The notes below the pieces were generated by a model. That model saw only the letters and a program-made list of their open reading frames with translations, was not told the DNA's origin and made no database searches. The translations under genes and the position numbers were made by a program. A stretch of DNA of 32,517 nt from positions 1 through 32,517 of the forward strand of contig JAKSCL010000401.1 of NCBI GenBank assembly GCA_022360615.1, written 5' to 3'. Numbering within the stretch: the stretch's first letter is position 1; every line of letters begins with the position of its first letter. The stretch comes from Hyphomicrobiales bacterium. GTDB lineage: Bacteria > Pseudomonadota > Alphaproteobacteria > Rhizobiales > JAKSCL01. This document shows positions 1,771 to 28,146 of this stretch, piece after piece.

Positions 1771-1879
1771 CCCTCATCCATACCGCGTTGTTGCCACGCT
1801 CCATCGCCAATCCCCCCAGACGAACCTATCACACCTGCTGGCAAGGCCTTGAGCACAAAGGAAAACGTTCTTGTTCGTA

Positions 1880-6995: not shown

Positions 6996-6998
6996 CGC

Positions 6999-9283: not shown

Positions 9284-9360
9284 ACCGCACCCCGCTGCCG
9301 GCCAGGGCAGCCCCTCCCTACTCAGCCGGCACGCCCCGGCAATACATCAAACCGGTTTGG

Positions 9361-9918
9361 TCAGATCAAACCAAACCGTCTGCGCCGTCCTCCCTCCACG
9401 GAAACAGACAGCCCGGACACCAGGATCGTCACTCTATTTCTTCGTCTCGATTTTAACTCATAGGTCGTGCGCCATTGTGCGGAGCTTATGTCGCGAAAGC
9501 CAGCGACAACGCCCAGATACTCGGCCTCCCTTGTCGTGGGCCGGTCGAGCTCCGTTTGATCGCCCGGCTTCAACTCGATCTCTTGCTTGGCGATGAGATC
9601 GGCGCCAAGCGCTGATGCGTCATCGTCGAGGAGATCGAAATAGTCGACCTGATTAAAGGCACCCACGCCCTTTAACTCATAAACCCGGACGACGACTGGA
9701 GATGGCGTCCCCTCTTCGTTCGGGTTCACCGACGTGTCAGCGAAAACCGTGATGTTCAGCTTGGTTTTCGGCTGTTCCCTGTTGCGGCCGCCACAACCGC
9801 TAACAAACAACGCAGCACTTGCTCCCAACACAAGGCCGCGCCGGTTAAAACGCGCCATCTCATCCGGCTTCCGGGTTTTGTCCGTGTCCGCCGGGCACAC
9901 GGTCTGCGCGTCTGCCAC
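9361..9918 (-). CDS. tssJ: T6SS lipoprotein TssJ (SciN family)
   Basis: Hydrophobic signal with lipobox-like FVSGC, then a TssJ-like domain (SPVVVRVYELKGVGAFNQVDYFDLLDDD). Start may be the internal ATG at 9858 (MARFNRRGLVLG...). Confidence 0.85.
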   Translation of the reverse strand: MADAQTVCPADTDKTRKPDEMARFNRRGLVLGASAALFVSGCGGRNREQPKTKLNITVFADTSVNPNEEGTPSPVVVRVYELKGVGAFNQVDYFDLLDDDASALGADLIAKQEIELKPGDQTELDRPTTREAEYLGVVAGFRDISSAQWRTTYELKSRRRNRVTILVSGLSVSVEGGRRRRFGLI

Positions 9919-9929
9919 TTGATTACTCC

Positions 9930-12083: not shown

Positions 12084-12103
12084 CCTCCTACGCCATTCGA
12101 GCC

Positions 12104-12382
12104 CTATGCCCGTCGACCAGGCACTCCGGCATCGCGCATGACTCTCAATTCGCGGGGTGGGATGCCCCCGTCTGCAAGGGAAAAACCGATCAGCCCCGAT
12201 TCCCCCGCTTGCCGCCGTGTATATTGATAAACCACTGTGACCGCCTCACGAAAGTCTTTCGCAACGAAAGTCATTTCATCACGAGACGTGCCGCTCTTTG
12301 GTTCCCACGGAAAGAGCCCAGGCCAATTCCAGCAAGGAACACTTGCCCGGCTTTCTTGCCGCTCAATGGCCATAAGCGTCAA
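12104..12382 (-). CDS. Small ORF between tssG and the FHA gene, function unknown
   Basis: 92 aa ORF. TTG start overlaps the tssG stop (TTGA at 12382-12379); an in-frame ATG lies at 12373. Stop is about 20 nt before the FHA start, so it fits the operon spacing. Confidence 0.55.
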   Translation of the reverse strand: MTLMAIERQESRASVPCWNWPGLFPWEPKSGTSRDEMTFVAKDFREAVTVVYQYTRRQAGESGLIGFSLADGGIPPRELRVMRDAGVPGRRA

Positions 12383-13389
12383 TCCCGATACCCGGACCAG
12401 GGCGCAAGATCGGCTTCATGCGACTTGCCTGACACAGGGTCGGTCCAGATGTTCCAGCCGAGCCGGCCTTCGCCGAGTTTCCAGGGTCGCGCCTCATCTT
12501 GTATCAAGCTGATGCGCAAATCCCACTCAAGCGGCTCGCGCAGTGCCAGCGCAATCAGATCGATAAGCGTTTGGTGTTCCGGTTTAACCGGCAAAAAAGC
12601 AGCCAATTCGTCCCTGGTAACCGGCCCGATCTTCAGCCGGAACCGCCCCGTCACATCGGGCACCGTGTCGCCGAGCACGAAACTGTCCCCAAGGACCCCG
12701 GAGGCTTCGCCAAGCCTGAGCTTATCGTCATCGGAGATCGTCACATTGCGTTCGACGAACTCCTCAATCTCGCAAGGCACTTTGAAATAGTGGGTAACAA
12801 GTCCCGCAACGATGCTTGCGGAACGGCTGTAAAGACTGAGAAGTCCTGCTTGCGGAAGGATCGTGGCGCGCCGAAGCTGGCGCGGCGAGGGTTTTGCTAC
12901 CGGCTGAAGCCCGATGAGCGAGAAGACACGTTGCGAGATCGGGTCGCCCGCGCCCTTTTGATAGCGCTCGTGATGCCGGTACTTCCGCCAGATCGAGTGC
13001 GAAAGCATGACCAGGCGGTGGTTGAAAAAGTCGAAAAAATCCTCAAGCGGATTCTCAGCGACATCAGATTGGACAATACGTTCTGTGTAGTGCGGTGGAA
13101 GCGGCGACGACGGTCCGTAAAGCCCCAGAAAGTTAACGCGCAGATCAAGTCTTGTGGGGCCGTCCGGCGCCAAATCGATCTGTGCAATGTCAGCCAAGCC
13201 GAAGCTTAACGAGCGCGCCGCGCGGAAGCGGATCACCTCATCATGCGGATCGATCGTGCGTGCATTTGAACCGATCTGCTGGAAACGCTTTTCGAGCAAG
13301 AGCACAAACTGGTGAAAGGTCGGCTCGCGTTCCTTAGCCCATTCGACGAGTTCTAGAATGGATTCACGGCTCCAATTCTGGGCGTCCAT
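12379..13389 (-). CDS. tssG: T6SS baseplate protein TssG (ImpH)
   Basis: 336 aa with TssG-like segments (FRAARSLSFGLADI, NFLGLYGPSSPLPPHYTE, FFDFFNHRLVMLSHSIWRKYR); 37-nt overlap with tssF. Confidence 0.95.
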   Translation of the reverse strand: MDAQNWSRESILELVEWAKEREPTFHQFVLLLEKRFQQIGSNARTIDPHDEVIRFRAARSLSFGLADIAQIDLAPDGPTRLDLRVNFLGLYGPSSPLPPHYTERIVQSDVAENPLEDFFDFFNHRLVMLSHSIWRKYRHHERYQKGAGDPISQRVFSLIGLQPVAKPSPRQLRRATILPQAGLLSLYSRSASIVAGLVTHYFKVPCEIEEFVERNVTISDDDKLRLGEASGVLGDSFVLGDTVPDVTGRFRLKIGPVTRDELAAFLPVKPEHQTLIDLIALALREPLEWDLRISLIQDEARPWKLGEGRLGWNIWTDPVSGKSHEADLAPWSGYRD

Positions 13390-15101
13390 CTATAACTTGC
13401 CTTTGTGTCTTTACCGGTGATCGCAAATTGATGAAGGCTATTAATGCTCGCATAGGCAGTGAAATAGGCATTCAAGACAGCGCCAAGCAGAAACATCTCG
13501 CCTTCGCCGCCAACCTTCGCCTCCTCGACGGTCAGTGTAAGACGGCGCGCGCGCACCGGCCGTCCCTTGACAAGAATGTCGACAGTGCCCATGCGGAAAT
13601 CGGAAAAGCCCTCAAGCAACAAGGACAAGCGCTGGCGGGCCTGAGCGTTCCGCAACGCCGCGAAATCATAGGCAGCGATCACGGTTCGGAGTGCATCGAC
13701 ATCGACGATTGAGCCGAAATTACGCGCAAGATTGGCGATCAACCGCCACATCACGGCATCGTGGATCGGCGGCGGCACTTCAGCGGAGACACCTGAAACA
13801 TTCGAGAAAACCACCGAACCGGGACTTGAGGCCGTGGGCCGGTTGATCCCGCCGACGGGGATTTGTTCGGCAAGCTGACCATTGGAGCAGGTGAGCCCAA
13901 TGGAAATCGTTTCCGTCTCAGGAACGCCAACCTTGTCGTTCTGGTCGATGAAGGTGATGAAATGGTCGACCCCGCGCCCGATAACCGCGTTGCGCAGCCG
14001 GATCCGGTAATAAAGGTCAACCTGGTCATCGCCAGGCAAATCGTGCGCAAAGGATTCAAACGCGGAATACGGCACGCGGGCGCCGCGCCCCTGGACGAAA
14101 CCGACCACGGAATTGACGGAGTGAATGGAGTACCCCGGTCCGCCGGTCGGCTTGATGCGGTACTCGCTGCGTGCATGATCGACGGTCAAAGGGTGCGCTG
14201 TGTGCTCAAAGAGGTTCACGGCCGGCGTCGCATTCACGGTGAACATGCGCTCCGAAACCCTCACCTGATCGGGCAGCGGGCGCGAGAATCCGAAGGTAAT
14301 CGTGAAGGTCCGCGCATCGGACCGGGCAAGCTGACCAAGCCGGGCAAGCTCGACAAACATGAACTTCTTTGGAAAAGCGAGGTATTCCTGAAGAATCCGG
14401 AAACCGGAGAAAGCGTTTGAAGGATAAGGCAGAACGGCATCCTTATCCTCAAGGCCAAGCGGCTTCAGGTCGCCAGGCCGCACCGAAAACGCCTTGCCGC
14501 CAGCCGGTTCAATCTGCACTTCGCGCATATGGCGCTGCATCCAAAGATAAAGCGTGCGTCCAACCAGCGGCTCACGGTCCACGTTAAAGAAAAGCCGCAA
14601 AGGGTTGGCCGCAAACCCGCCCAAACCGCAATTGTCATTCAACTTGAAGGAGAGCCGCAACTGGGCCGAGGTGGCCTGGTTATCAAGCGCCGCCTTTGTC
14701 ACCTTCACCGGCAGGACATGAACGTCATAGGAGGTGGAAAAACGGCATGGGGTACCGTTGACGGGCTGCGATTCCAAAATCGTGCCTCTCGGCACGGAGA
14801 CAACGTCGTCGGAGGCGTTGGCTGCCATATCGAAACCGATAATCGTCATCGGCGGGACCGGCCTCAAATAATGCGGCCAGAGGAGTCGGATGAGGCCATG
14901 GGCAAGTTCGGGCAACTCGTTTTCAAGCTGGGCGCGCAAACGGCCAGTCAAGAAAGCGAAACCCTCAAGAAGGCGCTCAACATCGGGATCGGCGGCATCC
15001 CGCGATAATGAACCCGCAAGCTTTGGATTCTCGCGCGCAAAAAGGTCGCCCATCTCCCGCAGATAAGAGAGTTCGTCCTCGTAATACTCGTTAATGGCCA
15101 C
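13353..15101 (-). CDS. tssF: T6SS baseplate protein TssF (ImpG)
   Basis: N-terminal YYEDELSYLREMGDLFARENPKLAGSLSRDAADPDVERLLEGFAFLTGRLRAQLE signature; 582 aa. Confidence 0.96.
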   Translation of the reverse strand: MAINEYYEDELSYLREMGDLFARENPKLAGSLSRDAADPDVERLLEGFAFLTGRLRAQLENELPELAHGLIRLLWPHYLRPVPPMTIIGFDMAANASDDVVSVPRGTILESQPVNGTPCRFSTSYDVHVLPVKVTKAALDNQATSAQLRLSFKLNDNCGLGGFAANPLRLFFNVDREPLVGRTLYLWMQRHMREVQIEPAGGKAFSVRPGDLKPLGLEDKDAVLPYPSNAFSGFRILQEYLAFPKKFMFVELARLGQLARSDARTFTITFGFSRPLPDQVRVSERMFTVNATPAVNLFEHTAHPLTVDHARSEYRIKPTGGPGYSIHSVNSVVGFVQGRGARVPYSAFESFAHDLPGDDQVDLYYRIRLRNAVIGRGVDHFITFIDQNDKVGVPETETISIGLTCSNGQLAEQIPVGGINRPTASSPGSVVFSNVSGVSAEVPPPIHDAVMWRLIANLARNFGSIVDVDALRTVIAAYDFAALRNAQARQRLSLLLEGFSDFRMGTVDILVKGRPVRARRLTLTVEEAKVGGEGEMFLLGAVLNAYFTAYASINSLHQFAITGKDTKASYRWTPRIGAVNPF

Positions 15102-15126
15102 CGCTTCCTCTTCCTTTTGGAGACGC

Positions 15127-15543
15127 TCAACTGCGGATGCGGACGCGGCCCGTATCGCTTAAGACGGTTTCAAACGAAATCTTTTCCGACACATGCTCGC
15201 TTTTGACCGTCGCAGTAATCCGGAAATTCACATTCAGCGGATTATCGGGGTCGGGCACGTGGCGGACCACGACCCCGGTCAGGCGCGGCTCGAACTTTTC
15301 AATCTGATATTTCACGGAGCGGATGACCGGATTAATCGCGTTGTTGAAATCGGTCACGAGGCCGTTCAAATCCGGCATGCCGTAGTCCTGCCGGATTTCG
15401 CAGCAGCCCTCGCGCGAATTCAGGATGCGCCTGAGATTGTCGATGATGTTCTCAAGCAGCATGGACTGGTCGGTATCGCCCGCAACGGCCGGCATGTTTT
15501 CAGTCGCGTTCTCTATCCGGTCGAAAAGGCATAACTCACGCAC
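15127..15543 (-). CDS. tssE: T6SS baseplate protein TssE (gp25-like/ImpF)
   Basis: 138 aa gp25-like: ENIIDNLRRILNSREGCCEIRQDYGMPDLNGL...FEPRLTGVVV. Confidence 0.93.
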   Translation of the reverse strand: MRELCLFDRIENATENMPAVAGDTDQSMLLENIIDNLRRILNSREGCCEIRQDYGMPDLNGLVTDFNNAINPVIRSVKYQIEKFEPRLTGVVVRHVPDPDNPLNVNFRITATVKSEHVSEKISFETVLSDTGRVRIRS

Positions 15544-15619
15544 AACTCACCCTCTTTGAGACCTCTCAACCCATTGCCGCTCAACGCCCGAAGCGCCGAT
15601 ATCAAAACGCGAACAGGCA

Positions 15620-15648
15620 GGGATGGCGGACCTTTCGCCTGCCATCCC
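15620..15648 (-). promoter_or_regulatory. Intercistronic hairpin just downstream of tssC (8-bp perfect stem)
   Basis: Inverted repeat GGGATGGC (15620-15627) / GCCATCCC (15641-15648), 13-nt loop, about 11 nt after the tssC stop, in the tssC-tssE gap. Confidence 0.5.
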
Positions 15649-15659
15649 CGATCTCCAAG

Positions 15660-17141
15660 CTACGACTTGTCCAGCTTGCCCTTGAGCGACAATGTGAAGT
15701 CGGCACCCATATATTTGAAGTGTGGCTGGATCGCCATGGAGACGCGATACCAGCCGGCCTCACCCTCGACGTCCTCGACCGTGATTTCCGCCTTTTTGAG
15801 CGGACGGCGCGAACGCACTTCCGCGGATGGGTTTTCCTGGTCCGACACATACTGCCGAAGCCAGTTGTTCAATTCGGTTTCCAATTCGCCGCGATTCTTC
15901 CAGGAGCCGATATTCTCGCGCTGCAGCACTTTGATGTAGTGCGCCAGACGGTTGATGATGAACATGTAGGGAAGTTGCGTGCCAAGCCGGTAGTTGAGTT
16001 CGGCATCCTTGCCCTCAGCCGTATTGCCGAAGAATTTCGGCTTCTGGACTGAGTTCGCAGAAAAGAACGCCGCATTGTCGGAGCCCTTGCGCATGGTGAG
16101 CGCAATGAAACCCTGCTCGGCAAGTTCGAATTCCCGGCGGTCGGACACCAGAACCTCGGTGGGGATTTTTGACTGCAGCTGCCCCATCGCCTCGAAGGTG
16201 TGGACTGGAAGGTCCTCGACAGCGCCGCCGGACTGCGGGCCGATGATGTTCGGGCACCAGCGGAACTTCGCAAAGGAGTCCGTCAACCGCGTGGCGAATG
16301 CATAGGCCGCGTTGCCCCAGAGATAGTTGTCGGTCTTGCCCTCGGATTCTTCCTCATAGTTGAAGGATTTCACCGGAACCGTATCGGGGCCGTAGGGCAG
16401 GCGCAGCATGAAGCGTGGCATGGTCAGACCCACATAGCGCGAGTCCTCCGATTCGCGGAACGAATTCCACTTGGCGTATTTCGGACCTTCGAAAATCGAT
16501 TCCAAATCCTTCAGGTTTGGAATTTCCTCGTATTTTTCGACGCCGAACATTTGCGGTCCCGCGGCTGCGACAAACGGCGCGTGCGCCATCGCGCCGACGC
16601 TCGCGGCATATTGCAGAAGCTTGACGTCCTGGGCGCCCGGGCCGAAATCGTAGTTGGACACGATCGCCCCGATCGGCTGGCCGCCGAACTGGCCGTATTC
16701 GGCGGTGTAGACGTGCTTGTAGAGGCCCGATTGGACCACTTCCGGGCTATCCTCGAAGTCCTCCAGAAGCGCTTCTTTCGAGACGTTCAGCATCTCGATC
16801 TTGATGTTCTGGCGGAAATCGGTGTTGTCGATCACATATTTGAGTCCACGCCAGGAGGACTCGAGTTTCTGGAAGCTCTCGTCATGCATGATTGCGTCAA
16901 GCTGCGAGGAAAGCTTCTGGTCGATGGCCACGATCATCTGATCGACGGCGTCATTCGAAACTTTCTCGCCCTGCCGCGACGGCTTGACCAATTCGGCGAT
17001 AAAGGCTGCGACACCCTTCTTGGCGACATCATAGCCTTCATCGGATGGCGTCAGGCGGGTCTCTTGAAGGATTTCATCGAGAAGGGAAACCTCGGCAGTT
17101 TCCGCCGCGCCGCTTTCTTGCTGGAGTTCGGTCTCAGACAT
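15660..17141 (-). CDS. tssC: T6SS contractile sheath large subunit TssC (ImpC/VipB)
   Basis: 493 aa, classic TssC sequence (LESSWRGLKYVIDNTDF, EYGQFGGQPIGAIVSNYDFGP, PRFMLRLPYG). Confidence 0.98.
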   Translation of the reverse strand: MSETELQQESGAAETAEVSLLDEILQETRLTPSDEGYDVAKKGVAAFIAELVKPSRQGEKVSNDAVDQMIVAIDQKLSSQLDAIMHDESFQKLESSWRGLKYVIDNTDFRQNIKIEMLNVSKEALLEDFEDSPEVVQSGLYKHVYTAEYGQFGGQPIGAIVSNYDFGPGAQDVKLLQYAASVGAMAHAPFVAAAGPQMFGVEKYEEIPNLKDLESIFEGPKYAKWNSFRESEDSRYVGLTMPRFMLRLPYGPDTVPVKSFNYEEESEGKTDNYLWGNAAYAFATRLTDSFAKFRWCPNIIGPQSGGAVEDLPVHTFEAMGQLQSKIPTEVLVSDRREFELAEQGFIALTMRKGSDNAAFFSANSVQKPKFFGNTAEGKDAELNYRLGTQLPYMFIINRLAHYIKVLQRENIGSWKNRGELETELNNWLRQYVSDQENPSAEVRSRRPLKKAEITVEDVEGEAGWYRVSMAIQPHFKYMGADFTLSLKGKLDKS

Positions 17142-17329
17142 TGCCTACCTCATTGTCCGCCATGTCCCCATGATACCCCCCTTTTCCGGCGAGACTTCAC
17201 CGCCCTACGCTACCGTTTCGGCTTCAAACGCCTGCTGTTTGCGGGTGTACCGGGAACTCTGCTGGCCGCGGGCGCGGCCCATTTGAACCTGGCGGACCAT
17301 TTCACCGGCCCGCCCATTTCTCATGATTC

Positions 17330-17857
17330 TTACGGCTTGTCCTCGCCGCCCTCATCCTTGCCGTCGCCCGACGACTTCGTTAGCTCGGCAAGCAATTTCT
17401 CGCGCGCACCTTCATCATCAAGTACGCCCTGGATGGCTTTGCGGAAGGCTGGCATATTGCCCATTGGGCCTTTCAGTGCGACCAGCGCTTCACGCAGCTC
17501 GGTCAGCTTGCGCAGTTCAGGGACCTGCGACACCACGGCCTCGGGCTCGAAATCCTTCAACGACTGGAATTTCAGGCTCGCGGTCAGCTTATCGTCGGGA
17601 TCAGCGTTTTCGTCGAGCTTGTTCTCAACGCCCACATCAAGCGACAGATCATGGCTCTTCAGAACGTCGTTGAAATTGTCCTTGTTGATATTGACGAGCT
17701 CGCGGTCTTCGAGCGGCGTATCATCCGGTTTGCCTGTGTAATCACCGACCATCAGCATTTTCAGCGGAAGCTCGACTTCTTCCTTTGCATTGCCGGTGGC
17801 CGGCTTATAGCGAATATTGACACGCTCCTTCGGCGCGACCGATGATTCCTTGGCCAT
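17330..17857 (-). CDS. tssB: T6SS contractile sheath small subunit TssB (ImpB/VipA)
   Basis: 175 aa, TssB motifs (RVNIRYKPATGNAKEEVELPLKMLMVGDYTG, FNDVLKSHDLSL, LKFQSLKDFEPEAV). Confidence 0.97.
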   Translation of the reverse strand: MAKESSVAPKERVNIRYKPATGNAKEEVELPLKMLMVGDYTGKPDDTPLEDRELVNINKDNFNDVLKSHDLSLDVGVENKLDENADPDDKLTASLKFQSLKDFEPEAVVSQVPELRKLTELREALVALKGPMGNMPAFRKAIQGVLDDEGAREKLLAELTKSSGDGKDEGGEDKP

Positions 17858-17925
17858 TATGTTGCCCCTCTCTCATGTTTTGCGCGGATCTCATCTTGAA
17901 AACTTTTCAAAGGCTGGCCCGCGCT

Positions 17926-19677
17926 CTAGCCCGACAGTTTAGCAGCTGCCGCAAGATCCATCCTTGCAAGCCGCTGCCGAGATTTTTCCAACGCTTCGCG
18001 GTTGTTCTGTTCGGCTCCCGGCATCTTCTTCACATCGGGATGCAAGAAAATCCGGCACCGTAACGCCGCCACACGCCCCGCAAGTTCCGGTTCCCAGGTT
18101 TCGATTTCGTTATCGTCTACCAGATGATCGAGATGCTCAAGCAACGAAATGGCCACGGGGACAAGCTTGTTTTCCAGGCAGAACTCCGCCTGATCGAGTT
18201 GCCAAAGCATTTGATCCCGCCGTCCCCGGATCTGGCCGAGAACTTGCGCAAGAAGTTTCAAGCCTTCATTGGCCCTGCCATTCGCCGCCAGGCTTCGGGC
18301 CTCACGAAGCGCGTTTGCACGGGGGTCGTCGCCCGACACCGCACCGCCGCCCTCGTCCGCCATCACCGTTTCAGCAATCCAGCGGCGCGCGCCGTCATCC
18401 GCAAAGGGCGTACCGTCTGCGAAGGTGAGGTCGACAAGACCGGGAAAGCGAGCAAGCAGAGCGCGCGTCATCGCGACGACCACGGCCTGAGCGGCGGCGT
18501 GGCTATCGCCGAGGGCGCCCAGTGTTGCCGCCGATCTGTGATTGCCCGTAAGCCAGCAAGGTGATGAAGCGACAACATTCTCGATTTCGGGAAGCGCTTC
18601 AGCATGCATGCCAGCGCTGAGCTTTCCCTCGACGCCATCGAGCTGCATCTTGTTCGGCGGCGGGATAAGCGTTTTTCCACCCTGATTCGCCGGAAGTTCC
18701 TTCAGTGAGGCAATGCCTGCGGCGCGGACCAAGAGATATGGCCGCGGATCGGCTATATCCTTGCGCCTCAGTGCTGAACCGAGACGTTTCATGGCGGTTT
18801 CGAGCTCTCTGGCCGCTTTCTCCAGATCGGCATCGCTTGCGTCGGCGGAAAGAGGAACGGTGGGCGCAGCCACCGTCGCCACCGGGGCGGGAGTTACCGA
18901 TGCTGCCGCACCATTCGCGGCAGGCGCTGCAGCGTCCGGAGCGTTGGGCGCCGGTGCCCCAGCAGCAGGATCCGTGGCCTTTTTCTGAGCCTGCTCCGCC
19001 TTCTTCCTTTCTTCTTCAGTCGCCTGTTTCGCGGCCTGTGCGTGCGGCCGCAGCGCGCGAACGAGTTCGCCCAGCGCAGCCTCGGTCTTCTCAAGCTTTG
19101 CAGAAAGGAGATCGTCGATCCCAAGCAGATAATCATTGGCCGCGATGACATAAGGCGCGTCAGACTTCGACGGCGTTGCTTCCGAGACCGGACCGGCAAG
19201 ACGCCCCACCAGCCATTCCATCGCCCCGACACGGCCGCGCTCCCGCCGGAGCGGCGGATGCATCTCAACCCAGAAATTGTCGATGAGGCCATGGATGATC
19301 CCCAGACCGACGGCAAGCCCCCTAAACGACTCCTCCCGGTGCAGACCGAAGGTCAACCATGTTGCGATCATCAAGTCCTTGGTCCGGTCTTCCAGGAGCT
19401 TAGACGCCATCTCGATGACATCGTTCCACCGGACGGCGTTCGGCCCCTCCGTTTCGATTTTGCGGAATTCGGCTTCGAGCGCATCGAAATCGGGATCGTC
19501 GCGGACGTCCTCACCGGCAACAGCATCGGAAGAAATCGGCGATGCGCCAATCGCGATGCGGGGATCGTCAAACGCGACCCCCTTCCCGGCGTCCTCTGTT
19601 TCACGCCCCGCGGCCCCATCCGCACCGCTTTCGGATGCAGAATTCCCCTGCTCCGCCCCGTCCGCCTGTGTTTCCAT
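17926..19677 (-). CDS. tssA: T6SS TssA (ImpA family)
   Basis: ImpA N-terminal domain (GEDVRDDPDFDALEAEF...WNDVIEMASKLLEDRTKDLMIATWLTFGL). ORF opens at 19776 but ATG 19677 (METQADG) is a plausible start. Confidence 0.9.
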   Translation of the reverse strand: METQADGAEQGNSASESGADGAAGRETEDAGKGVAFDDPRIAIGASPISSDAVAGEDVRDDPDFDALEAEFRKIETEGPNAVRWNDVIEMASKLLEDRTKDLMIATWLTFGLHREESFRGLAVGLGIIHGLIDNFWVEMHPPLRRERGRVGAMEWLVGRLAGPVSEATPSKSDAPYVIAANDYLLGIDDLLSAKLEKTEAALGELVRALRPHAQAAKQATEEERKKAEQAQKKATDPAAGAPAPNAPDAAAPAANGAAASVTPAPVATVAAPTVPLSADASDADLEKAARELETAMKRLGSALRRKDIADPRPYLLVRAAGIASLKELPANQGGKTLIPPPNKMQLDGVEGKLSAGMHAEALPEIENVVASSPCWLTGNHRSAATLGALGDSHAAAQAVVVAMTRALLARFPGLVDLTFADGTPFADDGARRWIAETVMADEGGGAVSGDDPRANALREARSLAANGRANEGLKLLAQVLGQIRGRRDQMLWQLDQAEFCLENKLVPVAISLLEHLDHLVDDNEIETWEPELAGRVAALRCRIFLHPDVKKMPGAEQNNREALEKSRQRLARMDLAAAAKLSG

Positions 19678-19777
19678 TCGCTGTTCCACGAGCCAATCCC
19701 GGTTTTCTCGCCAAACGGTCTGCTGAAGCGTCGTCAGGATCCTGGTTGACCAGGCAACTGAAGCCCATCCGCTCATC

Positions 19778-20170
19778 GAATATTAATCGTGTTTATCCCT
19801 CTGACATAATAATAAGACACTTCTATAAACTCTTTGTAATCCTGTTCAGTATAATGGCATCCGTTATGTTCACTTTCATCCGTAAAACGAGCATGTCAGC
19901 TTCGCTGTTGGCACGCTGAATTCAACAGGGATAGCCGACAATAAACACTGAACCGATGCGCCATCGTCAGAACTGTTTTCAAGGGATCAAGAGAGAGTTA
20001 GAAGGCGAAGTGAACAGACCAGGGGCTTGGTCGAACGACTCGGTCTGATCACGAATTCCGGGCTGTGGGTTACGTTACGTCATAGTGCTATCCGCGCGGG
20101 CGGAAAAGACACTGGTCAACCTTCCCGGCCTTGGCTACGACAACAACCCGCAGTAATGGGGCTCCGATCC
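19778..20170. promoter_or_regulatory. Divergent intergenic regulatory region between the T6SS operon and the partner-switching operon
   Basis: Gap of about 390 bp between divergent operons. The segment ~19780-19870 is clearly AT-richer than its surroundings, and an inverted repeat CTGTTG-N12-CAACAG lies at 19905-19928. No specific promoter consensus assigned. Confidence 0.55.
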
Positions 20171-20518
20171 ATGGCACTTACCATCAACGACGACTACGAC
20201 GGAGCGATCCTGATCGTCCGTCCCGCCGGAAGGCTCGATACGACGACAGCCAAGTCGCTCGAAACGCATCTGAGCAGCCATATCACCGACGGTCAGACAC
20301 AGATTGTCATCGACTTGGCTCAGGTTGACTACGTGAGCAGCTACGGCTTGCGCGTGATTCTTATCATTGCCAAGAAACTGATGCCGCACGGACAGGCTTT
20401 TGCGCTGTGCAACCTGTCGGAAAACGTCCATTCGGTTTTCGAGGTGAGCGGTTTCGGCAAAATCCTGAAGATCAAGCCGAGCCTTGGCGAAGCTGTCAGT
20501 GCAGTTTCGACTGTCTGA
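20171..20518 (+). CDS. STAS-domain anti-sigma factor antagonist (RsbV/SpoIIAA-like)
   Basis: Translation from ATG 20171: MALTINDDYDGAILIVRPAGRLDTTTAKSLE...IVIDLAQVDYVSSYGLRVILIIAKKLM, a canonical STAS pattern with candidate phospho-Ser in YVSSYGLR. Confidence 0.9.
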   Translation: MALTINDDYDGAILIVRPAGRLDTTTAKSLETHLSSHITDGQTQIVIDLAQVDYVSSYGLRVILIIAKKLMPHGQAFALCNLSENVHSVFEVSGFGKILKIKPSLGEAVSAVSTV

Positions 20519-20552
20519 ATGCGTAGACCGACAGTGACGGGGGCGTACGGTC

Positions 20553-20975
20553 ATGCATAGTACTGTGACCACCGAGCTGGAGATAAAAAGCTCGTTTGAA
20601 GAGATGGATCGGGTCGTCGACTTTGTCGACGATTTTTGCGTGCGGGAAAGCGTAAATGACGCAGTCCGCAACAAACTGCACCTTATCGCTGAAGAACTTG
20701 TGGTCAACGCGGTGATGCACGGTTATCCCGGGCGCGAAGATGGCTGGATCGCACTCCGGCTTCGCGAAATGGAAAAGGGTATCGAAATCACCTACCTGGA
20801 CGAGGCCGCGCCTTTCGACCCGCTCTCTGAAGCTATAGACCCGGATCTCGATGCTGGCCTTGAGGAGAAACGCGTTGGCGGCCTAGGGATATTCCTCATC
20901 CGGGAGTTCGCAGAAGACGCCCGTTATAAGCGGGCTGGAAATCGAAATACTCTTTCAATTGTGGTATGTACGTGA
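20553..20975 (+). CDS. RsbW/SpoIIAB-like anti-sigma serine kinase (HATPase_c)
   Basis: GHKL N-box HLIAEELVVNAVMHGY; C-terminal GGLGIFLIREFAEDARYKRAGNRNTLSIV; directly follows the STAS gene. Confidence 0.9.
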   Translation: MHSTVTTELEIKSSFEEMDRVVDFVDDFCVRESVNDAVRNKLHLIAEELVVNAVMHGYPGREDGWIALRLREMEKGIEITYLDEAAPFDPLSEAIDPDLDAGLEEKRVGGLGIFLIREFAEDARYKRAGNRNTLSIVVCT

Positions 20976-21012
20976 TCGCTTGAGGGAGTGGGAGTTCGGG
21001 AGCTGAGGGCCG

Positions 21013-22185
21013 GTGTTGGATGTAAAGGGCGAGCGGGGCAAGACGGGCGACAATACGCAGGATGGCCCACAGAACTTTTCAAACGAACAAGAAGCGGCGT
21101 CAAATGTTGCGCCGGTCTCCACGTCTGCGTCCTTCGCCCCGCAGGGCAATAATGTGCATGCCCCCGTTCAACGGGCCGCAGTCGACGCGGACGGGGCGGC
21201 GGCTGTACAACCAATCGGCGATCCGGCAAGGAGCAACGTTGGGCTGCCTCTTTTTGACCCGCCTGCGCAGGCTGTTTACACGCCCGAGGCCGATACTCCC
21301 AGCACCGCCACCAACAAAACGTCCAAACCCGCCCAACAAGGCGATACATCCGGTTTGTCAATAGGGCGGGTTCCTAGACCGCCCCGTACGCTTTTCGGCC
21401 GCAGCATCTTCCTGCGCCTTGTCATGCCGCTATCCCTGATCTTCCTGTTCAGCATGGGCGGGGCGGCGTTTTTGAACTTCACGAAGTTCGAGCAAACCTA
21501 TGTAACACTCGCCCATGAGCGCTATGACGATGCCGTCCGTGATCTGCGTTTCAGCATCGAGGAGAGTCTTGGGATCGGCCTGTCGCTCGGCGCCACACAA
21601 TCGACCCAAGTGGTGATTGACCGGACAGTCGAGCAATATAGCGGCGCTTTCGAACTGACCATCCTCGGTACCGATGGCGAAATCCTCTTTGGAACCCAGA
21701 ATGCGACCTTCGGCGATCTCCGTGACACCCAGGCTGGACGCGGCTTCATCGATCAACTTATCGCCGAAACAGCGGCTCAGGCCCGTATCGGGAAGTCCGT
21801 CACCGACAAGCGGTTCTTGAGCACAACCGTCATCAGAAATCCGCTGGGAGAGATCGAAGGCTATCTGGTCCTAGGGCACAACCGGTCCGAAGTGCAAGAC
21901 GTCATCACCCGGCTTGGCGACGTGCTTTGGCGCGGCGTGGCCGTTTTAAGCTTTGTTTTCGTTGTCATAATCGCAGTCACCGTTTTCTTTGCGATCCGGC
22001 CCATGGAGCGGCGGTTCGCTAAGGGCAGCGAGGCCCTCGCGCATTTGATCGAAACAGGCGATCTCGCGCCTGTCGACCCCATGGGTCGCAACGACGATCT
22101 GTCGATCGGCTTCTCACAGGCACGCTCCATTGAGCGGGAGCTGGCTGCAGCCGAAGCGCAAGTCATGACGGTCCAGGGGCGTTGA
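21013..22185 (+). CDS. Membrane sensor-like protein: disordered N-terminus, two TM segments flanking a predicted extracytoplasmic domain
   Basis: TM1 LRLVMPLSLIFLFSMGGAAFL, about 150 aa domain (RYDDAVRDLRFSIEESLGIGLSLG...), TM2 VLWRGVAVLSFVFVVIIAVTVFFAIRPMERR, short cytoplasmic tail. GTG start assumed. Confidence 0.7.
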   Translation: MLDVKGERGKTGDNTQDGPQNFSNEQEAASNVAPVSTSASFAPQGNNVHAPVQRAAVDADGAAAVQPIGDPARSNVGLPLFDPPAQAVYTPEADTPSTATNKTSKPAQQGDTSGLSIGRVPRPPRTLFGRSIFLRLVMPLSLIFLFSMGGAAFLNFTKFEQTYVTLAHERYDDAVRDLRFSIEESLGIGLSLGATQSTQVVIDRTVEQYSGAFELTILGTDGEILFGTQNATFGDLRDTQAGRGFIDQLIAETAAQARIGKSVTDKRFLSTTVIRNPLGEIEGYLVLGHNRSEVQDVITRLGDVLWRGVAVLSFVFVVIIAVTVFFAIRPMERRFAKGSEALAHLIETGDLAPVDPMGRNDDLSIGFSQARSIERELAAAEAQVMTVQGR

Positions 22186-22189
22186 TCAG

Positions 22190-24421
22190 ATGGCCCGCCC
22201 GCGATACGGCAATGCGGTGAGATGGCTGATCGGGCTTTTAACCCCGCTCGCGATCATACCGTTCTTCATTTTCACGCTTTTCTGCATTTGGGTCTTTGAG
22301 AGCGGTTTGCTGCCTGAGCAGGAGCTCAAGGCGACGACCGTTGGGACCGGCATTAAAGCCCGTGTCGAATACGCCGTTGAAGTCGGCATCCCGTTCAACG
22401 ATCTGCGCGCGATGACGGACTTCCTAGACGATACCCGGGCAGCCAGTCAGCAGATATCGTTCATCGCCGTCGCAACGACTAACGGCCGTATCCTTTATCA
22501 GTCGAGCAATCCGCCGAACGATCTCCGCCTTCTCGTCAACGACGCCATCGCGGTTAAGGAAACCGGCGAGACAAGCGCCCTCGATGAGGGCGCAAGCTGG
22601 GCGTCTAGGGTCGTCAACCGCACCTTGCGATTGTTCGGCTTCTCCGACCAGATCGTGCAACGCGATCTGTCGAGTCCGCGGATTGGCGATTATTACGTCA
22701 CGATCCTTCCGCTAATGGATGGCAACACCCAGCTTGGGCACCTCGCCGTCGGCGTGGGGGTGACGGTTCTTTCACGCGTCGTCGGCGATCTGATTTTCGA
22801 TACCGCAACTGTGGTGCTTGCCGCATTCGTGATCGCGGTCGAATTGATGATCCTCGTCGTGACGCTTCATCTGATCCGGCCGATCAAACTCTTGGCCGTG
22901 GTCGCAGAGAGGCTACGAAACCGCGATTTAAGCGCGCTTGTGCAGATCGACAGTTTTGGCGCGGTCGCGCGTACCGTTGATCTCCTGAATGTCTATGCAA
23001 CCTACGCGTTTGAGCGGCTGAAAGCCGTCTATGTGGGCATGCAGTCGCTGCCGGCCGGGCGCCGAAGGCGTGAAGCGCGCCTTTACCTGCGAGACCTTCT
23101 GCTGCGCTATGAGCTGCCGAACCGCGGGGTTCAGGATGGTCTGCAGTTGCCGGCCCTCACCTATATCCGCCTTCCGCTTTTTCTGTTCTTCCTTGCCGAG
23201 GCCCTTGTCAGACCGCTCCTCCCGGTTCTCATCAACGGGCTCGATTCAAGCGTTCTGCCGCTTTCAAAGGAGTTCGCCCTCGGCCTGCCCTTCGCCGCCT
23301 TCATGGCCGCCTCCATTTTCGGCGTGGTTTTCGGATCCTTTGCAGCCGACCGCATGGGACCGCGCAGCGTTCTGGTTTTCGGCGCCCTCTTTTCTGCGGC
23401 GGGGCTCGGCCTTCACGCCACTGCCACTAACATCGAAATAATGACCGTCTTCCGCTGTGCTTCGGGGCTTGGATATGGCCTCGTCTACGCGGCGGCACAG
23501 GTTTACGTTGTTGAAAATAGCGAACGGCGGCAACGCGCAAGCGGCTTTTCGGTATTCCTTGCAGCAGTTGTTGCTGCTGAGATTTGCGGGCCTGCGATCG
23601 GGGGTATCATTGCGGATCGTATCGGGTTTGCAGTCACCTTCGTCGTCGGCGCAGGGCTTCTCCTTCTTTCGCTGCTCTTCGTGCTTTTCCTGATCAGCCA
23701 CCGTCCCGACATCGAAGAAAAAATAAAGAGCGCGGCCCCGCGGCGGCTTAGCTACAGCGAGTATCGCGAAGGCGGCCGCGATATGATGATGAACGCCCGC
23801 TTTATGGTGCTTTGCATCCTTTATGCGGTCCCATCGAAGCTGATCCTGACGGGCGCGGTCTTTTTTCTCATCCCCCTGGCGGCGGAGCAATTCGGGGCAA
23901 ATGTCGCCGAAACCGGACGCATATTGATGCTTTACGGGATCATGATCGTGCTGACGGGACCGCTCTTTGCACGCTTTGCCGACAAGTACCACAGTTTCGG
24001 ATTGAACATCGCACTTGGCGGAGTTCTCTCGGGCATCGGACTTGTCACGGTTGTGTTCCTGCCCGGAATCGCCAGCCTCGCGATTGCGGTTGCCTTTATC
24101 GGGCTTGGACAAGCCATGTCCATCCCCTCACAACTTACCTATGCGCTTGAGGTCGCCGAAGCCGAAGCCGAAAAGCACGGGGCGGGCATGGTGCTTGGAA
24201 TTTTCCGTTTCGTGGAGCGGGTCGGAAGCCTCCTCGGTCCCGTTTTGGGCGCAGTACTGATCGGCATTGCGGGTATTACTGAGGCTTTGATGATCTTCGG
24301 CATCTACGCCATCGTCTCGGCCTGCCTCGCCAGTGCCTTCTTCCTTACCTTCGGACCAAAGGATGAAAACCGTGCGATTGAGGAACTTCTCACCGGAAAA
24401 CCGGCGTCGCAAAACGCCTAG
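22190..24421 (+). CDS. Sensor-like module (TM, extracytoplasmic domain, TM, HAMP-like linker) fused to an MFS transporter
   Basis: N-term TM LIGLLTPLAIIPFFIFTLFCIWVF, about 190 aa soluble region, TM AAFVIAVELMILVVTLHLIRPIKLLAVVAERLRNRDLS, then MFS-like multi-TM region with GSFAADRMGPRSVLVFGALFSAAGL and GPAIGGIIADRIG. Confidence 0.8.
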   Translation: MARPRYGNAVRWLIGLLTPLAIIPFFIFTLFCIWVFESGLLPEQELKATTVGTGIKARVEYAVEVGIPFNDLRAMTDFLDDTRAASQQISFIAVATTNGRILYQSSNPPNDLRLLVNDAIAVKETGETSALDEGASWASRVVNRTLRLFGFSDQIVQRDLSSPRIGDYYVTILPLMDGNTQLGHLAVGVGVTVLSRVVGDLIFDTATVVLAAFVIAVELMILVVTLHLIRPIKLLAVVAERLRNRDLSALVQIDSFGAVARTVDLLNVYATYAFERLKAVYVGMQSLPAGRRRREARLYLRDLLLRYELPNRGVQDGLQLPALTYIRLPLFLFFLAEALVRPLLPVLINGLDSSVLPLSKEFALGLPFAAFMAASIFGVVFGSFAADRMGPRSVLVFGALFSAAGLGLHATATNIEIMTVFRCASGLGYGLVYAAAQVYVVENSERRQRASGFSVFLAAVVAAEICGPAIGGIIADRIGFAVTFVVGAGLLLLSLLFVLFLISHRPDIEEKIKSAAPRRLSYSEYREGGRDMMMNARFMVLCILYAVPSKLILTGAVFFLIPLAAEQFGANVAETGRILMLYGIMIVLTGPLFARFADKYHSFGLNIALGGVLSGIGLVTVVFLPGIASLAIAVAFIGLGQAMSIPSQLTYALEVAEAEAEKHGAGMVLGIFRFVERVGSLLGPVLGAVLIGIAGITEALMIFGIYAIVSACLASAFFLTFGPKDENRAIEELLTGKPASQNA

Positions 24422-25448
24422 GCGATCCGTCCTATGCGCGCTTGTCTTTTCCGCTGCCTTCCTTGCCGGCCTCATGATAGCCGCGCCCTTTTCAAACGAC
24501 GCCCGCGCGGTGGAAAAGAATAAAACCTACACCATCTTCGCCGTCCTGTGGCGTGGCGAAACGGAAGTCGAAACAGGCTTCCGCGCTTATGTGCGTGAAC
24601 GGAATCTGCCATTCAACATTATTGTCCGCTCCGCTGACCAGGATGCGACCAGACTGCCGCAAATCATTGAGGAAATCAGAAAAACCAAACCGGACCTCAT
24701 CTATACCTGGGGGACTACGAACGCCACGACGGTCGTGGGCCGCATGGAAGAGATCGATCCGGAAAAGCATATCACTGACATCCCGGTCGTCTTCACCATG
24801 GTCTCCTTCCCGGAAGGCTCCCGCCTTATTACCGACCGGGCCTCTTCCGGGCGCAATATCACGGGCGTGAGCCATATCGTGCCGCTCGACACGCAAGTGA
24901 AGGCTATGGAAGCCTTCATGCCGATCGACCGCATCGCGGTGATCTACTCACCATCGGAACCAAACTCGGTTCTCAACGTGAATGAGTTGAGGGCCATGGC
25001 TGAAGAAGGGAACTTCAAGGTCTTCCCCTTCCCGGCGAGCCTCGACGAGGCAGGTAAGCCCAGCGCTGATGAGATCCCTTCACTCGTCGATGAAGCGGCA
25101 TCGATCGATCCGCAATTCCTCTATCTGGGTCCGGACTCCTTCATCGGACAGAACCACAAGCTGATCACGGCGGAGGCCAAGCGGGCGGGTATTGCCACCT
25201 TCACAGCCACCGAGGTCATGATCCGGGATTCAGAAGCGCTTTACGGTCTTGTGTCACCTTACCGCGACGTTGGCCGGCTAACGGCACGCAAAGCCGAACA
25301 GATTCTTCTTGAAGGCAAACATCCCTCGGAAATACCGGTTGAGACGCTTCAGCGCTTTTCTTACCAGATCAATATGCAGGTGGCGAAAAGGCTCGGGATC
25401 TATCCGGCGATGCCGCTTTTGAGCTACGCGGAAGTCCTGAACCAATGA
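24363..25448 (+). CDS. ABC transporter substrate-binding protein (ABC_sub_bind family)
   Basis: Signal-like N-terminus (RSVLCALVFSAAFLAGLMIAAPFSNDARA), then IIEEIRKTKPDLIYTWGTTNATTVV...ITDIPVVFTMVSFP...SGRNITGVSHIVPLDTQVKAMEAFMPIDRIAVIYSPSEPNS. Overlaps the MFS gene end; no permease or ATPase gene nearby. Confidence 0.85.
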   Translation: MKTVRLRNFSPENRRRKTPRRSVLCALVFSAAFLAGLMIAAPFSNDARAVEKNKTYTIFAVLWRGETEVETGFRAYVRERNLPFNIIVRSADQDATRLPQIIEEIRKTKPDLIYTWGTTNATTVVGRMEEIDPEKHITDIPVVFTMVSFPEGSRLITDRASSGRNITGVSHIVPLDTQVKAMEAFMPIDRIAVIYSPSEPNSVLNVNELRAMAEEGNFKVFPFPASLDEAGKPSADEIPSLVDEAASIDPQFLYLGPDSFIGQNHKLITAEAKRAGIATFTATEVMIRDSEALYGLVSPYRDVGRLTARKAEQILLEGKHPSEIPVETLQRFSYQINMQVAKRLGIYPAMPLLSYAEVLNQ

Positions 25449-26248
25449 GCGTTGAAAAGCTGCCTGAGGCGGCAACCGTGTTAACGGAACGGCAAGCGCC
25501 GCTCTGCCACCGCGGCGGCGACATTTCCTTTCGCGTCGCAAGTGAAGCGGATGTTGACGCCCTCGACCGGCTCAACATGGATGTGATATGCGCCCTTGGC
25601 GTCCCGGGACGCTTCATGCGTCAAGACCGGCCCTTCTTTTCCGGGCTTATCGGCTGCAAAGATGCCTGCATCTTCTTGGCGGAGCAAGCGGGCAAGCCCG
25701 CTGCTTACTCGATAGCCGCCCGGGCTTGCCCAGACATTCCAGCTTTCGGTGACAATGCTGCAAATGGCGGCGGATCACGTTCGACCGGACTCTTGTTTGG
25801 AACGGCCGTTGATCCGCCGTTACGTGGCCTTGGGCTTCAACGCCTTCTCATTGCGCTTCGCATGGCCAGCCTGCGACGGATCGGATGTCTGCGCATGCAG
25901 ACGACCGTTTCACCATTCAATGGGCCGTCGCTCGCCAATCTGATGGACACGGGTTTCAAGGTGATCGGCTTGAAGCGTATTCTTGACGGCCATTTCCGGT
26001 TTATCATGGACCGCCCAGACCTGCTTAACGGCATCACCGACATTGTCGAGAAGACATCCAAACAGAACGGGCGTGCCCGCCGGGTGCTCTGCAACGAGGA
26101 ATCCATTGACGGGCACAATGATCTTCTGGCGGCCGGTTGGCTCGGCCATGACTACGCCGGAGCATTTGAGACCGAGGTGATGGAGATTATTTATGTTCAG
26201 CAGGACATGGCGCTCCCTGCTGAGGCGATGACAAGGGAAGATGCGTGA
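25445..26248 (+). CDS. GNAT-family N-acetyltransferase
   Basis: GNAT motif A-like VDPPLRGLGLQRLLIALRMASLRRIGC...NLMDTGFKVIG; ATGA overlap with the upstream gene. Confidence 0.75.
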   Translation: MSVEKLPEAATVLTERQAPLCHRGGDISFRVASEADVDALDRLNMDVICALGVPGRFMRQDRPFFSGLIGCKDACIFLAEQAGKPAAYSIAARACPDIPAFGDNAANGGGSRSTGLLFGTAVDPPLRGLGLQRLLIALRMASLRRIGCLRMQTTVSPFNGPSLANLMDTGFKVIGLKRILDGHFRFIMDRPDLLNGITDIVEKTSKQNGRARRVLCNEESIDGHNDLLAAGWLGHDYAGAFETEVMEIIYVQQDMALPAEAMTREDA

Positions 26249-28146
26249 ACGAAACCGCTGACATCGCGCAGCCGCAGATGCTCCTGCGGACGAAGATCGC
26301 ACTCTTTGCAACAGCGATTCTGGTCAGCCTGTCTTTCATTCTCCTGCTCTTTGGCGAGATCAAAGCGGAATGGGCCAACGATCAGTTCGAATCGGCACTG
26401 CTCGATGGCGATGACACCGCAATTTCCACGATCACCGAACTCGATTCACGTTTCCTGTCCCGGGTCAGTCTCGACCTTCGCGACCGCCCCGAAATCCGCC
26501 GGGCGCTGCAGATCGGAACGAGCGGCGCGGCGACAAGTTTTTTGCGCGAGGTGCAGGACGTCACGCGTTTTCTTGATCCGCAACCAAATGTGTTTCTGCT
26601 CTCGCCAAGCTTCACTGTTCTGACATCGACCGTTTCGGATGTTCCAGGCAATTTCGCCAATGTGCTTGAGCCGCTCTTTGACGGGCGCGCCCGGAGCTTT
26701 AGCGGCGTTTTCCGTTTTCCGCGCACCGGTAGCCTCCTTCTTATGTTCGTTCAGGAAATCCGCCTGCGCGACAATGTTGCAGGCTATCTCGTCACTGGGC
26801 TTGATTTCCGCCAGCGCAGCCGGATTTTGCTCCGCGACAACACAGCCATCTTGTTCGTTGCCCATGACCAAGAACCCCAACTCCTTCATGGCTCGGTTGC
26901 CCAAGGTTTCATCGAAACACTTGCTTGCTGCCATACGCGGCCAAACGTCGTCGAGTGGACGGGTCCCGATGGCGCGCATTTGGTTGCGACGGTGAACCGC
27001 CTTGTCGACCCGAACGGGACGCAGATGGGCGACTTTTATGTCGTCCGCGATTTGACCGAACAGAAAGCGCGCCAAGAACTCTTGAGCCGGCTTTCCTATG
27101 CCGGTGTCGCGCTTTTCATCCTGATCGCGGTGTCCCTTCTGATCTGGTCGCTGCGCACATCCTTGCGGCCGTTGAGCGCCGTCGTTGAAGTTCTGCGTGC
27201 GCTTTCGAAAGGCGACACATCGACTGGACTGCGCAGTGTGAAGACAAGCCGGGAAATCGGTACGCTCGCCGACACGGTGGAAAGCTTCCGGACAGGCCAG
27301 CAAGCACGCGAGGAGCTGCTTGCTCTCAATGAGCAGATATCAAGCGCATCACGCATCCAGCAGACTATTCTACCGCGCGAGTTCGACCTTGACCCGACCC
27401 TCGATATTCATGCCGTGATGCAGCCGGCACAGGATATCGGCGGCGATTTTTTCGATATCTTCCGGATCGATAAAGAGCGTATTTGCATCCTCGTCGCCGA
27501 TGTCGCCGGCAAGGGAATCGGATCCGCGCTCTTTGCGAGCAATGCAAGCGCCATGTTGCGCGCTTATGCGCCGCTTTCGAAAACGACCGCCGAAGTCATC
27601 GCGCTTGTCAACCGCGAGTTGTGCAAGCGAAACGATGAAGGGCTCTTCATTACGCTCTTCCTTGCGATCCTGGATACGAAAACCGGCGAATTCGCTTTTA
27701 CCAATGCCGGACATGGGCAACCTTTCCTGATCCGGCTCGATGGCCAAGTGTCCACGCTTCCGATGACGGGCGATATGGCGCTCGGCTTCTTCGATGACGT
27801 GGAATATGGCTATGATTCCATCCGGCTGACACCTGGCCAGACGATCGTAATCTATTCGGACGGCTTTGATGAATCGATGAATCCCAAGGGTGAATTGCTC
27901 GGCCTTGAGCGCGCAACCCATATCGTCAAAAGCGTGGCTGGACTGCAGGCAGGCAGGGCGATTGAGCTGATTTCGGAAGCGATCGCCTGGTACGAAAACG
28001 GCGCGAAGCCGGCTGATGACATCACACTTGTCGCTTTGCGTTGGGACCCCGCACGCGCTGGCAAACCGGAGGCGCAAAAGAATATGGGCGCACGACCCGA
28101 AGGCGCCTTTGAGGCAGCCGAGAAGGCCCCTGAGCCTGCCGAATAA
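26245..28146 (+). CDS. Membrane-anchored SpoIIE/RsbU-type PP2C phosphatase with extracytoplasmic sensor and HAMP-like linker
   Basis: TM near the N-terminus, second TM (GVALFILIAVSLLIWSL), HAMP-like segment, SpoIIE motifs DIGGDFFDIF, VADVAGKGIGSALFAS, FTNAGHGQPFLI, IYSDGFDES, PADDITLVAL. GTG start overlapping the GNAT stop. Confidence 0.92.
   Translation: MNETADIAQPQMLLRTKIALFATAILVSLSFILLLFGEIKAEWANDQFESALLDGDDTAISTITELDSRFLSRVSLDLRDRPEIRRALQIGTSGAATSFLREVQDVTRFLDPQPNVFLLSPSFTVLTSTVSDVPGNFANVLEPLFDGRARSFSGVFRFPRTGSLLLMFVQEIRLRDNVAGYLVTGLDFRQRSRILLRDNTAILFVAHDQEPQLLHGSVAQGFIETLACCHTRPNVVEWTGPDGAHLVATVNRLVDPNGTQMGDFYVVRDLTEQKARQELLSRLSYAGVALFILIAVSLLIWSLRTSLRPLSAVVEVLRALSKGDTSTGLRSVKTSREIGTLADTVESFRTGQQAREELLALNEQISSASRIQQTILPREFDLDPTLDIHAVMQPAQDIGGDFFDIFRIDKERICILVADVAGKGIGSALFASNASAMLRAYAPLSKTTAEVIALVNRELCKRNDEGLFITLFLAILDTKTGEFAFTNAGHGQPFLIRLDGQVSTLPMTGDMALGFFDDVEYGYDSIRLTPGQTIVIYSDGFDESMNPKGELLGLERATHIVKSVAGLQAGRAIELISEAIAWYENGAKPADDITLVALRWDPARAGKPEAQKNMGARPEGAFEAAEKAPEPAE

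Follow-up and report, generated by a model that had tools for sequence, protein, structure and literature searches.

A putative partner-switching cassette with a sensor-transporter core, encoded divergently from a type VI secretion operon in a Hyphomicrobiales bacterium

Introduction

For partner switching in Gram-negative bacteria the input is rarely known, and a locus that encodes a switch together with proteins of sensing type raises the question of whether the one feeds the other, and what is then controlled. Such a locus is present on contig JAKSCL010000401.1 of a Hyphomicrobiales bacterium (GCA_022360615.1), the whole of which (32,517 nucleotides) was analysed and is referred to here as the window; the assembly is of 3.9 Mb in 418 contigs, and the genome is ~93% complete. 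Seven genes on the plus strand encode, in order, a STAS-domain protein, an RsbW-like kinase, a membrane sensor (SENS), a sensor fused to a major facilitator superfamily (MFS) domain (SMFS), a periplasmic substrate-binding protein (SBP), a GNAT-family protein (GNAT) and a membrane SpoIIE-type phosphatase (SPOIIE), and they run divergently from a type VI secretion system (T6SS) operon (Table 1).

The original prediction held that these genes form an undescribed unit in which SBP and SMFS relay a small-molecule signal to the phosphatase, the output being the neighbouring T6SS or an unlinked target. The analysis described here leads us to favour, with a probability of roughly 0.65, a transporter-coupled partner-switching signal system whose final target is either unlinked or the divergent T6SS.

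Results and Discussion

The partner-switching proteins

A switch of the RsbU/V/W type is recognized by a STAS serine, the Glu and Asn of a GHKL N-box and the metal ligands of a SpoIIE-type PP2C phosphatase, and, as judged from sequence, the cassette possesses all three. The SSxGLR motif of the STAS protein, with its phosphorylatable Ser, is invariant across 31 relatives, E48 and N52 of the kinase N-box are invariant across 22, and the metal-ligand positions D401, D419, D591 and D592 of SPOIIE are conserved across 50. SPOIIE has two transmembrane (TM) helices followed by HAMP and phosphatase domains, the HAMP match falling just under the cut-off. Because the kinase is the only free-standing PF13581 protein found in the genome, and SPOIIE the only SpoIIE protein above cut-off, this genome is unlikely to have a second partner switch from which cross-talk could come.

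A sensory core beside the switch

SENS had no Pfam match, and its assignment came from an AlphaFold model in which it is predicted to have the plan TM-PAS-TM-HAMP and to end after the HAMP region. In Foldseek comparisons it was nearest to the receptor domain of WalK (4ywz, TMt 0.73; 7dud, 0.68) and to other extracytoplasmic PAS/Cache sensors, with LuxQ appearing weakly among them; an N-terminal extension of ~125 residues is absent from relatives. The first 300 residues of SMFS are modelled on the same plan, with the WalK receptor likewise the best fold match. Two TM helices flanking a periplasmic domain, together with a HAMP-like region, are common to SENS, SMFS and SPOIIE. The original expectation that sensing-type parts lie beside a partner switch was therefore borne out, with SENS, SMFS and SBP as a sensory core next to the partner-switching proteins.

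In an alignment of 7 diverse members the MFS part of SMFS retains a motif-A-like region, the motif B arginine (RxxxxG), motif C (CGPxxGG) and an acidic residue in TM1. These are the marks of H+-coupled antiporters, and because they are kept SMFS probably still transports; in the window it may thus transport as well as sense.

The nearest structures to SBP are PDB 3lft and 3lkv (~1e-15), and the nearest protein by model is TrpX, the score against NF041285 being 107 where the equivalog cut-off is 390. This score, and the lack of any ABC permease or ABC ATPase match among the window open reading frames (ORFs) scanned, led us to reject a TrpX-type ABC importer or its remnant. Nor was a sigma factor matched among these ORFs, in agreement on all three counts with what had been predicted. 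The GNAT protein scored 17.4 bits against PF00583, under the cut-off, its relative at locus L020 scoring above it, and profile matches were to GNAT structures (7ypu, 1s3z).

Conservation of the cassette

A scan of a genome collection with an SMFS alignment yielded 204 relatives, from which 80 loci, chosen by similarity, were kept. Counts over the 80 are lower bounds owing to contig ends and extended ORFs, and the count of loci with all seven families was scored strictly. For rates we used even samples of 399 Pseudomonadota (SMFS at E<=1e-60) and 385 Alphaproteobacteria (SMFS at E<=1e-90), some genomes being common to both.

Four further genomes of this order have all seven families within ~12 kb, and the families are found together at 10 of the 80 loci; the proposal that the seven genes constitute a conserved unit thus passed its co-occurrence check. 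SENS, SMFS and SBP form a near-universal core, with SENS directly upstream of SMFS at 66 of the 80 loci and SBP adjacent to it at 69. Within the flank of the same loci SPOIIE was found at 46, GNAT at 32, the kinase at 31 and the STAS protein at 27. SMFS was present in 10/399 Pseudomonadota and 20/385 Alphaproteobacteria, and SPOIIE lay in the fetched stretch at 13 of the 20 alphaproteobacterial loci (window included), with contig ends truncating several of the others.

On the SMFS tree the window protein groups with nine sequences from Paracoccaceae and Roseobacteraceae (SH-aLRT 100), to which its highest identity is 36%. The backbone order of the window is common to all nine cassettes, and six of them (L024, L025, L026, L030, L031, L032) have all seven families in window order; L027 and L028 gave no separate SENS match, and L029 no SENS or GNAT match. 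A second architecture, seen in Hyphomicrobiales and others, has an extra SENS and a ~600-residue protein before SPOIIE. This protein is homologous to SMFS over 532 columns (hhalign E 1e-35). Of 27 aligned positions at which SMFS is invariant or almost so, however, the copy at L020 retains only 10, and the protein therefore has the look of a transporter that has become a sensor. The idea of a transporter-derived sensor therefore found support at other loci, the only ones in which clearly degenerate MFS copies were seen, and is to be applied with care to the window, where the motifs expected of a functional H+-coupled antiporter are all retained in the MFS domain.

Two further MFS matches, in Azospirillum B510 and Neorhizobium (L008, L017), were set aside as shorter MFS proteins with no cassette in the annotation. 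At L037, SENS-SMFS-SBP are followed by a secretin/TPR protein, possibly of another secretion system, and on pDVUL01 of Nitratidesulfovibrio vulgaris (L011/L019) an ABC_sub_bind-type protein and a 987-residue MFS protein with a long N-terminus adjoin a type III secretion chaperone gene.

Linkage to T6SS loci and the target of the switch

Whether the divergent T6SS is the output could be approached through the distribution of TssK. Of the 399 genomes in the phylum sample 89 have TssK, among them 6 of the 10 with SMFS; SMFS and TssK were <=20 kb apart in 5 of these 6, three of the five being from one genus and not independent. Among the 20 SMFS genomes of the alphaproteobacterial sample TssK was present in 5, three of which have it at a distance from SMFS of <= ~31 kb.

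The T6SS-linked label changes five times on the SMFS tree: at the window; at an alphaproteobacterial metagenome-assembled genome (MAG; L040); in Phreatobacter (L069), where SENS-SMFS-SBP-SPOIIE stand directly before tssA-B-C-E-F-G; in a Rhizobium/Ciceribacter trio with TssK ~31 kb off; and in a single clade of Vibrio, Photobacterium, Marinomonas, Marinobacterium and Oceanospirillum. Outside the tree, an intra-operon type on Vibrio plasmids has SMFS-SBP between tssH and FHA, and in one further genome (G534) SENS, a relative of the sensor half of SMFS and a SpoIIE-like protein precede tssK-L-M-A-B-C-F-G-H-vgrG. SENS-SMFS-SBP lie ~11 kb beyond vgrG in G534, so that its T6SS stands between a SpoIIE-like arm and a sensor-MFS arm. 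The core is thus linked to T6SS in about seven lineages, where a rough Poisson estimate, with lineage number and linkage distance assumed and partly set after the data had been seen, gives 0.1-0.3 expected by chance (P ~1e-5 or less for >=5 linked lineages). Given that the core has joined T6SS loci on several occasions, it is a reasonable guess that the cassette controls the T6SS in this window, although we hold this tentatively and would place it at somewhat under even odds.

On the other hand, the switch might act on an unlinked target only, such as a sigma factor, a cyclase or another enzyme, with the T6SS a chance neighbour here, and this is a serious contender that we would give a little less than an even chance. 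The cassettes most closely related to that of the window sit in genomes without TssK, 15 of the 20 SMFS-bearing alphaproteobacteria likewise lack it, and in some relatives (L020:3077-4729 and L021:13572-15287) the RsbW-like kinase carries a fused guanylate-cyclase-like domain, an indication of other outputs. Less easily accommodated is that, where a T6SS is present, linkage is unusually frequent in both samples and recurs across lineages.

For a signal system with either kind of target, the reading that we favour, several observations are unwelcome. The eight genomes tested from the clade of the window SMFS all lack TssK, these being MAGs in which absence is not absolute. The T6SS-linked cores of marine Gammaproteobacteria had no SpoIIE, STAS or kinase match in their flank, and therefore the same mechanism cannot apply there unchanged. 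The SpoIIE-like protein at the head of the T6SS operon in G534 (L140:11989-14160) has lost the metal ligands and is likely a pseudophosphatase.

With TssK missing from eight genomes that carry closely related cassettes, we rejected the T6SS as an obligatory output; a regulator dedicated to T6SS would show consistent linkage along with T6SS presence, and what we found is linkage that is recurrent and TssK absent from many cassette genomes. Evidently the cassette has other targets in relatives. What stands of the predicted T6SS output is accordingly the linkage of the core to T6SS in several lineages, and what falls is the T6SS as a general output, the closest cassettes being in genomes without TssK.

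The Hcp and TssH genes of this genome are at the end of another contig (L120; G000 contig C129, from 17387), which perhaps holds the missing part of the T6SS cluster. In marine gammaproteobacterial T6SS operons (L013, L014, L015, L018, L104, L111, L112, L123) a second periplasmic binding protein, of the transporter substrate-binding-domain type, is encoded between tssH and FHA, with SMFS adjacent or not.

A proposed mechanism and its alternatives

In the mechanism that we propose, SBP would capture a small, probably amino-acid-like ligand and dock on the periplasmic faces of SENS and SMFS. HAMP-to-HAMP contacts within one membrane complex could then carry this state to SPOIIE, which would dephosphorylate the STAS protein; the dephosphorylated STAS protein would bind the RsbW-like kinase, and the kinase's other partner would be freed. 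The MFS domain probably transports the ligand or a derivative of it, and would thereby tune the signal.

It is also conceivable that the cassette senses the population, by making, exporting and re-reading its own small signal. GNAT would in this case make an amino-acid derivative, a role that elsewhere would fall to an ATP-grasp, glutamate-cysteine ligase-like or alanine racemase enzyme, while SMFS would export the product and SBP would report its level to SpoIIE. The antiporter-type motif C, motif B arginine and acidic TM1 residue of SMFS are in keeping with export, TrpX-like proteins are the nearest to SBP, and enzymes that modify amino acids are repeatedly encoded next to the core: in addition to the GNAT genes noted above, alanine racemase is found at nine loci, at one of which (L020) its gene is three bases from that of GNAT on the same strand, ATP-grasp enzymes in Azospirillum and the plasmid-bearing Vibrios, and a glutamate-cysteine-ligase-family (GCS2) enzyme in Aureimonas. 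No one enzyme is universal, however, the T6SS-linked marine cores have no adjacent GNAT match, and the recurring enzymes could modify a protein or degrade the ligand, and we consider a self-made signal unlikely. More doubtful still is a wider form of the idea, in which SENS, SMFS and SBP are an unrecognised signal-exchange core that exports and re-reads a self-made amino-acid-derived signal, and in which outputs vary between a SpoIIE switch, a T6SS, or both as here; were it true, T6SS activity would be gated by a cell-to-cell signal of a new type.

Least probable of the functional alternatives is that the partner switch controls SMFS activity post-translationally and has no further output. That SMFS and SBP rank with the most constant members, and that the transporter has a HAMP-like region fused straight to it, would suit such an arrangement, but sensor-MFS copies that have lost most of the conserved transporter positions are kept beside SpoIIE, which points to signalling, and elsewhere the core accompanies T6SS with no partner-switch genes present. 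Finally, chance clustering of the seven genes was rejected on their recurrence in four genomes of the same order and at dozens of other loci, across orders and classes.

Gene organization of the window

The packing of seven plus-strand genes divergent from a T6SS operon is as it had been described, coordinates and strand agreeing; six of the genes have domain support from Pfam/NCBIfam matches and SENS is supported by its structure model. SENS and SMFS are separated by 4 bp, SMFS and SBP overlap, and the SBP/GNAT and GNAT/SPOIIE junctions are overlaps of 4 bp each. The start of SBP at 24333 is uncertain, with an alternative ATG at 24363.

Table 1. Features of the window, with the evidence for each assignment.
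Feature	Position	Strand	Evidence
STAS-domain anti-sigma-factor antagonist (RsbV-like)	20171..20518	+	PF01740 1.3e-20; TIGR00377 anti-anti-sigma above cut-off
RsbW-like serine kinase / anti-sigma-type HATPase	20553..20975	+	PF13581 (HATPase_c_2) 2.2e-21
SENS, predicted membrane sensor, TM-PAS/Cache-like-TM-HAMP, no output domain	21013..22185	+	AlphaFold model mf5f9d71fe678
SMFS, predicted TM-PAS-TM-HAMP sensor fused to MFS domain	22190..24421	+	MFS_1 8.8e-41, residues 331-673; sensor model
SBP, orphan periplasmic substrate-binding protein, PF04392 (TrpX-like family)	24333..25448	+	ABC_sub_bind 5.6e-32
GNAT-family acyltransferase-like protein	25445..26248	+	weak PF00583
SPOIIE, membrane SpoIIE-type PP2C phosphatase, TM-periplasmic domain-TM-HAMP-PP2C	26245..28146	+	PF07228 4.5e-44
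Divergent intergenic region, tssA to cassette, 394 bp	19777..20170	.	sequence and composition
T6SS operon, from tssA at 19776 down to Ser/Thr kinase at 346: kinase, PP2C, TagF, TssM, L, K, J, FHA, G, F, E, C, B, A	346..19776	-	Pfam; candidate output

The intergenic region between tssA and the cassette is AT-richer (48% GC vs 59%). When scanned it gave no sigma-70 site and sigma-54 matches at or below chance, and its sole inverted repeat is of 9 bp with arms 132 bp apart; on these results we rejected shared regulatory DNA in the gap. A promoter and terminator scan for operon mapping of the cassette gave matches below shuffle expectation. Downstream, a gene for a CehA/McbA-like metallohydrolase (28432-29340, plus strand) has an in-frame TGA at 28696-28698 and is either a pseudogene or the result of an assembly error.

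Significance and comparison with known systems

With a binding protein, a sensor and a transporter encoded alongside it, the switch has an input side that is open to experiment. The recurrent placement of the core at T6SS loci also gives a way into T6SSs that stay silent under laboratory conditions, for example T6SS1 of V. fluvialis, and if the ligand were found a class of membrane signalling modules across Alpha- and Gammaproteobacteria would become readable.

The RsbU-RsbV-RsbW system of Bacillus, which acts on SigB, resembles the cassette in having a SpoIIE-type PP2C phosphatase, a STAS antagonist with a conserved serine and a HATPase kinase with an N-box. It differs in that the phosphatase of the cassette is a transmembrane HAMP protein, that a sensor, a sensor-MFS protein, a binding protein and a GNAT protein are co-encoded, and that no sigma factor is linked. 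In the Proteobacteria, the BtrU-BtrV-BtrW switch of Bordetella controls a type III secretion system (PMC8256260). The secretion system linked to the cassette is by comparison a T6SS, and is a candidate target only. Btr is not known to include a transporter or a binding protein.

The SiaABCD system of Pseudomonas aeruginosa has a transmembrane HAMP-SpoIIE phosphatase acting on a STAS protein, as SPOIIE is proposed to do, whereas the cassette has an HATPase_c_2 kinase. Membership in this system was rejected: SPOIIE scored 57.9 bits against the SiaA model NF038263, over the C-terminal region only, where the cut-off is 700, and no GGDEF cyclase was matched among the window proteins scanned.

LuxPQ and ChvE-VirA combine a periplasmic binding protein with a membrane receptor that has a periplasmic domain. 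The binding protein of the cassette belongs instead to PF04392, the receptor has no kinase domain, and the coupling between the two is putative. In UhpABC a protein of transporter fold is used in sensing. The same is true of the SLC5/STAC sensor kinases (PMC9100948). In contrast to both, the MFS protein of the cassette carries its PAS-HAMP sensor at the N-terminus, and its association is with a SpoIIE phosphatase rather than with a histidine kinase.

As had been proposed, the cassette is apparently undescribed: a full-text literature search, with most subscription literature outside its scope, turned up no paper in which partner switching is connected with T6SS regulation or with MFS sensors. 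At the left junction of VflT6SS1 in Vibrio fluvialis, a periplasmic component of ABC type and an MFS transporter are mentioned, only as flanking sequence of a system that was likely inactive in the conditions tested (PMC5371669). That description differs from the cassette in having no partner-switch genes. In V. furnissii (L088), SENS-SMFS-SBP adjoin VgrG-PAAR-Hcp-TssB-TssC.

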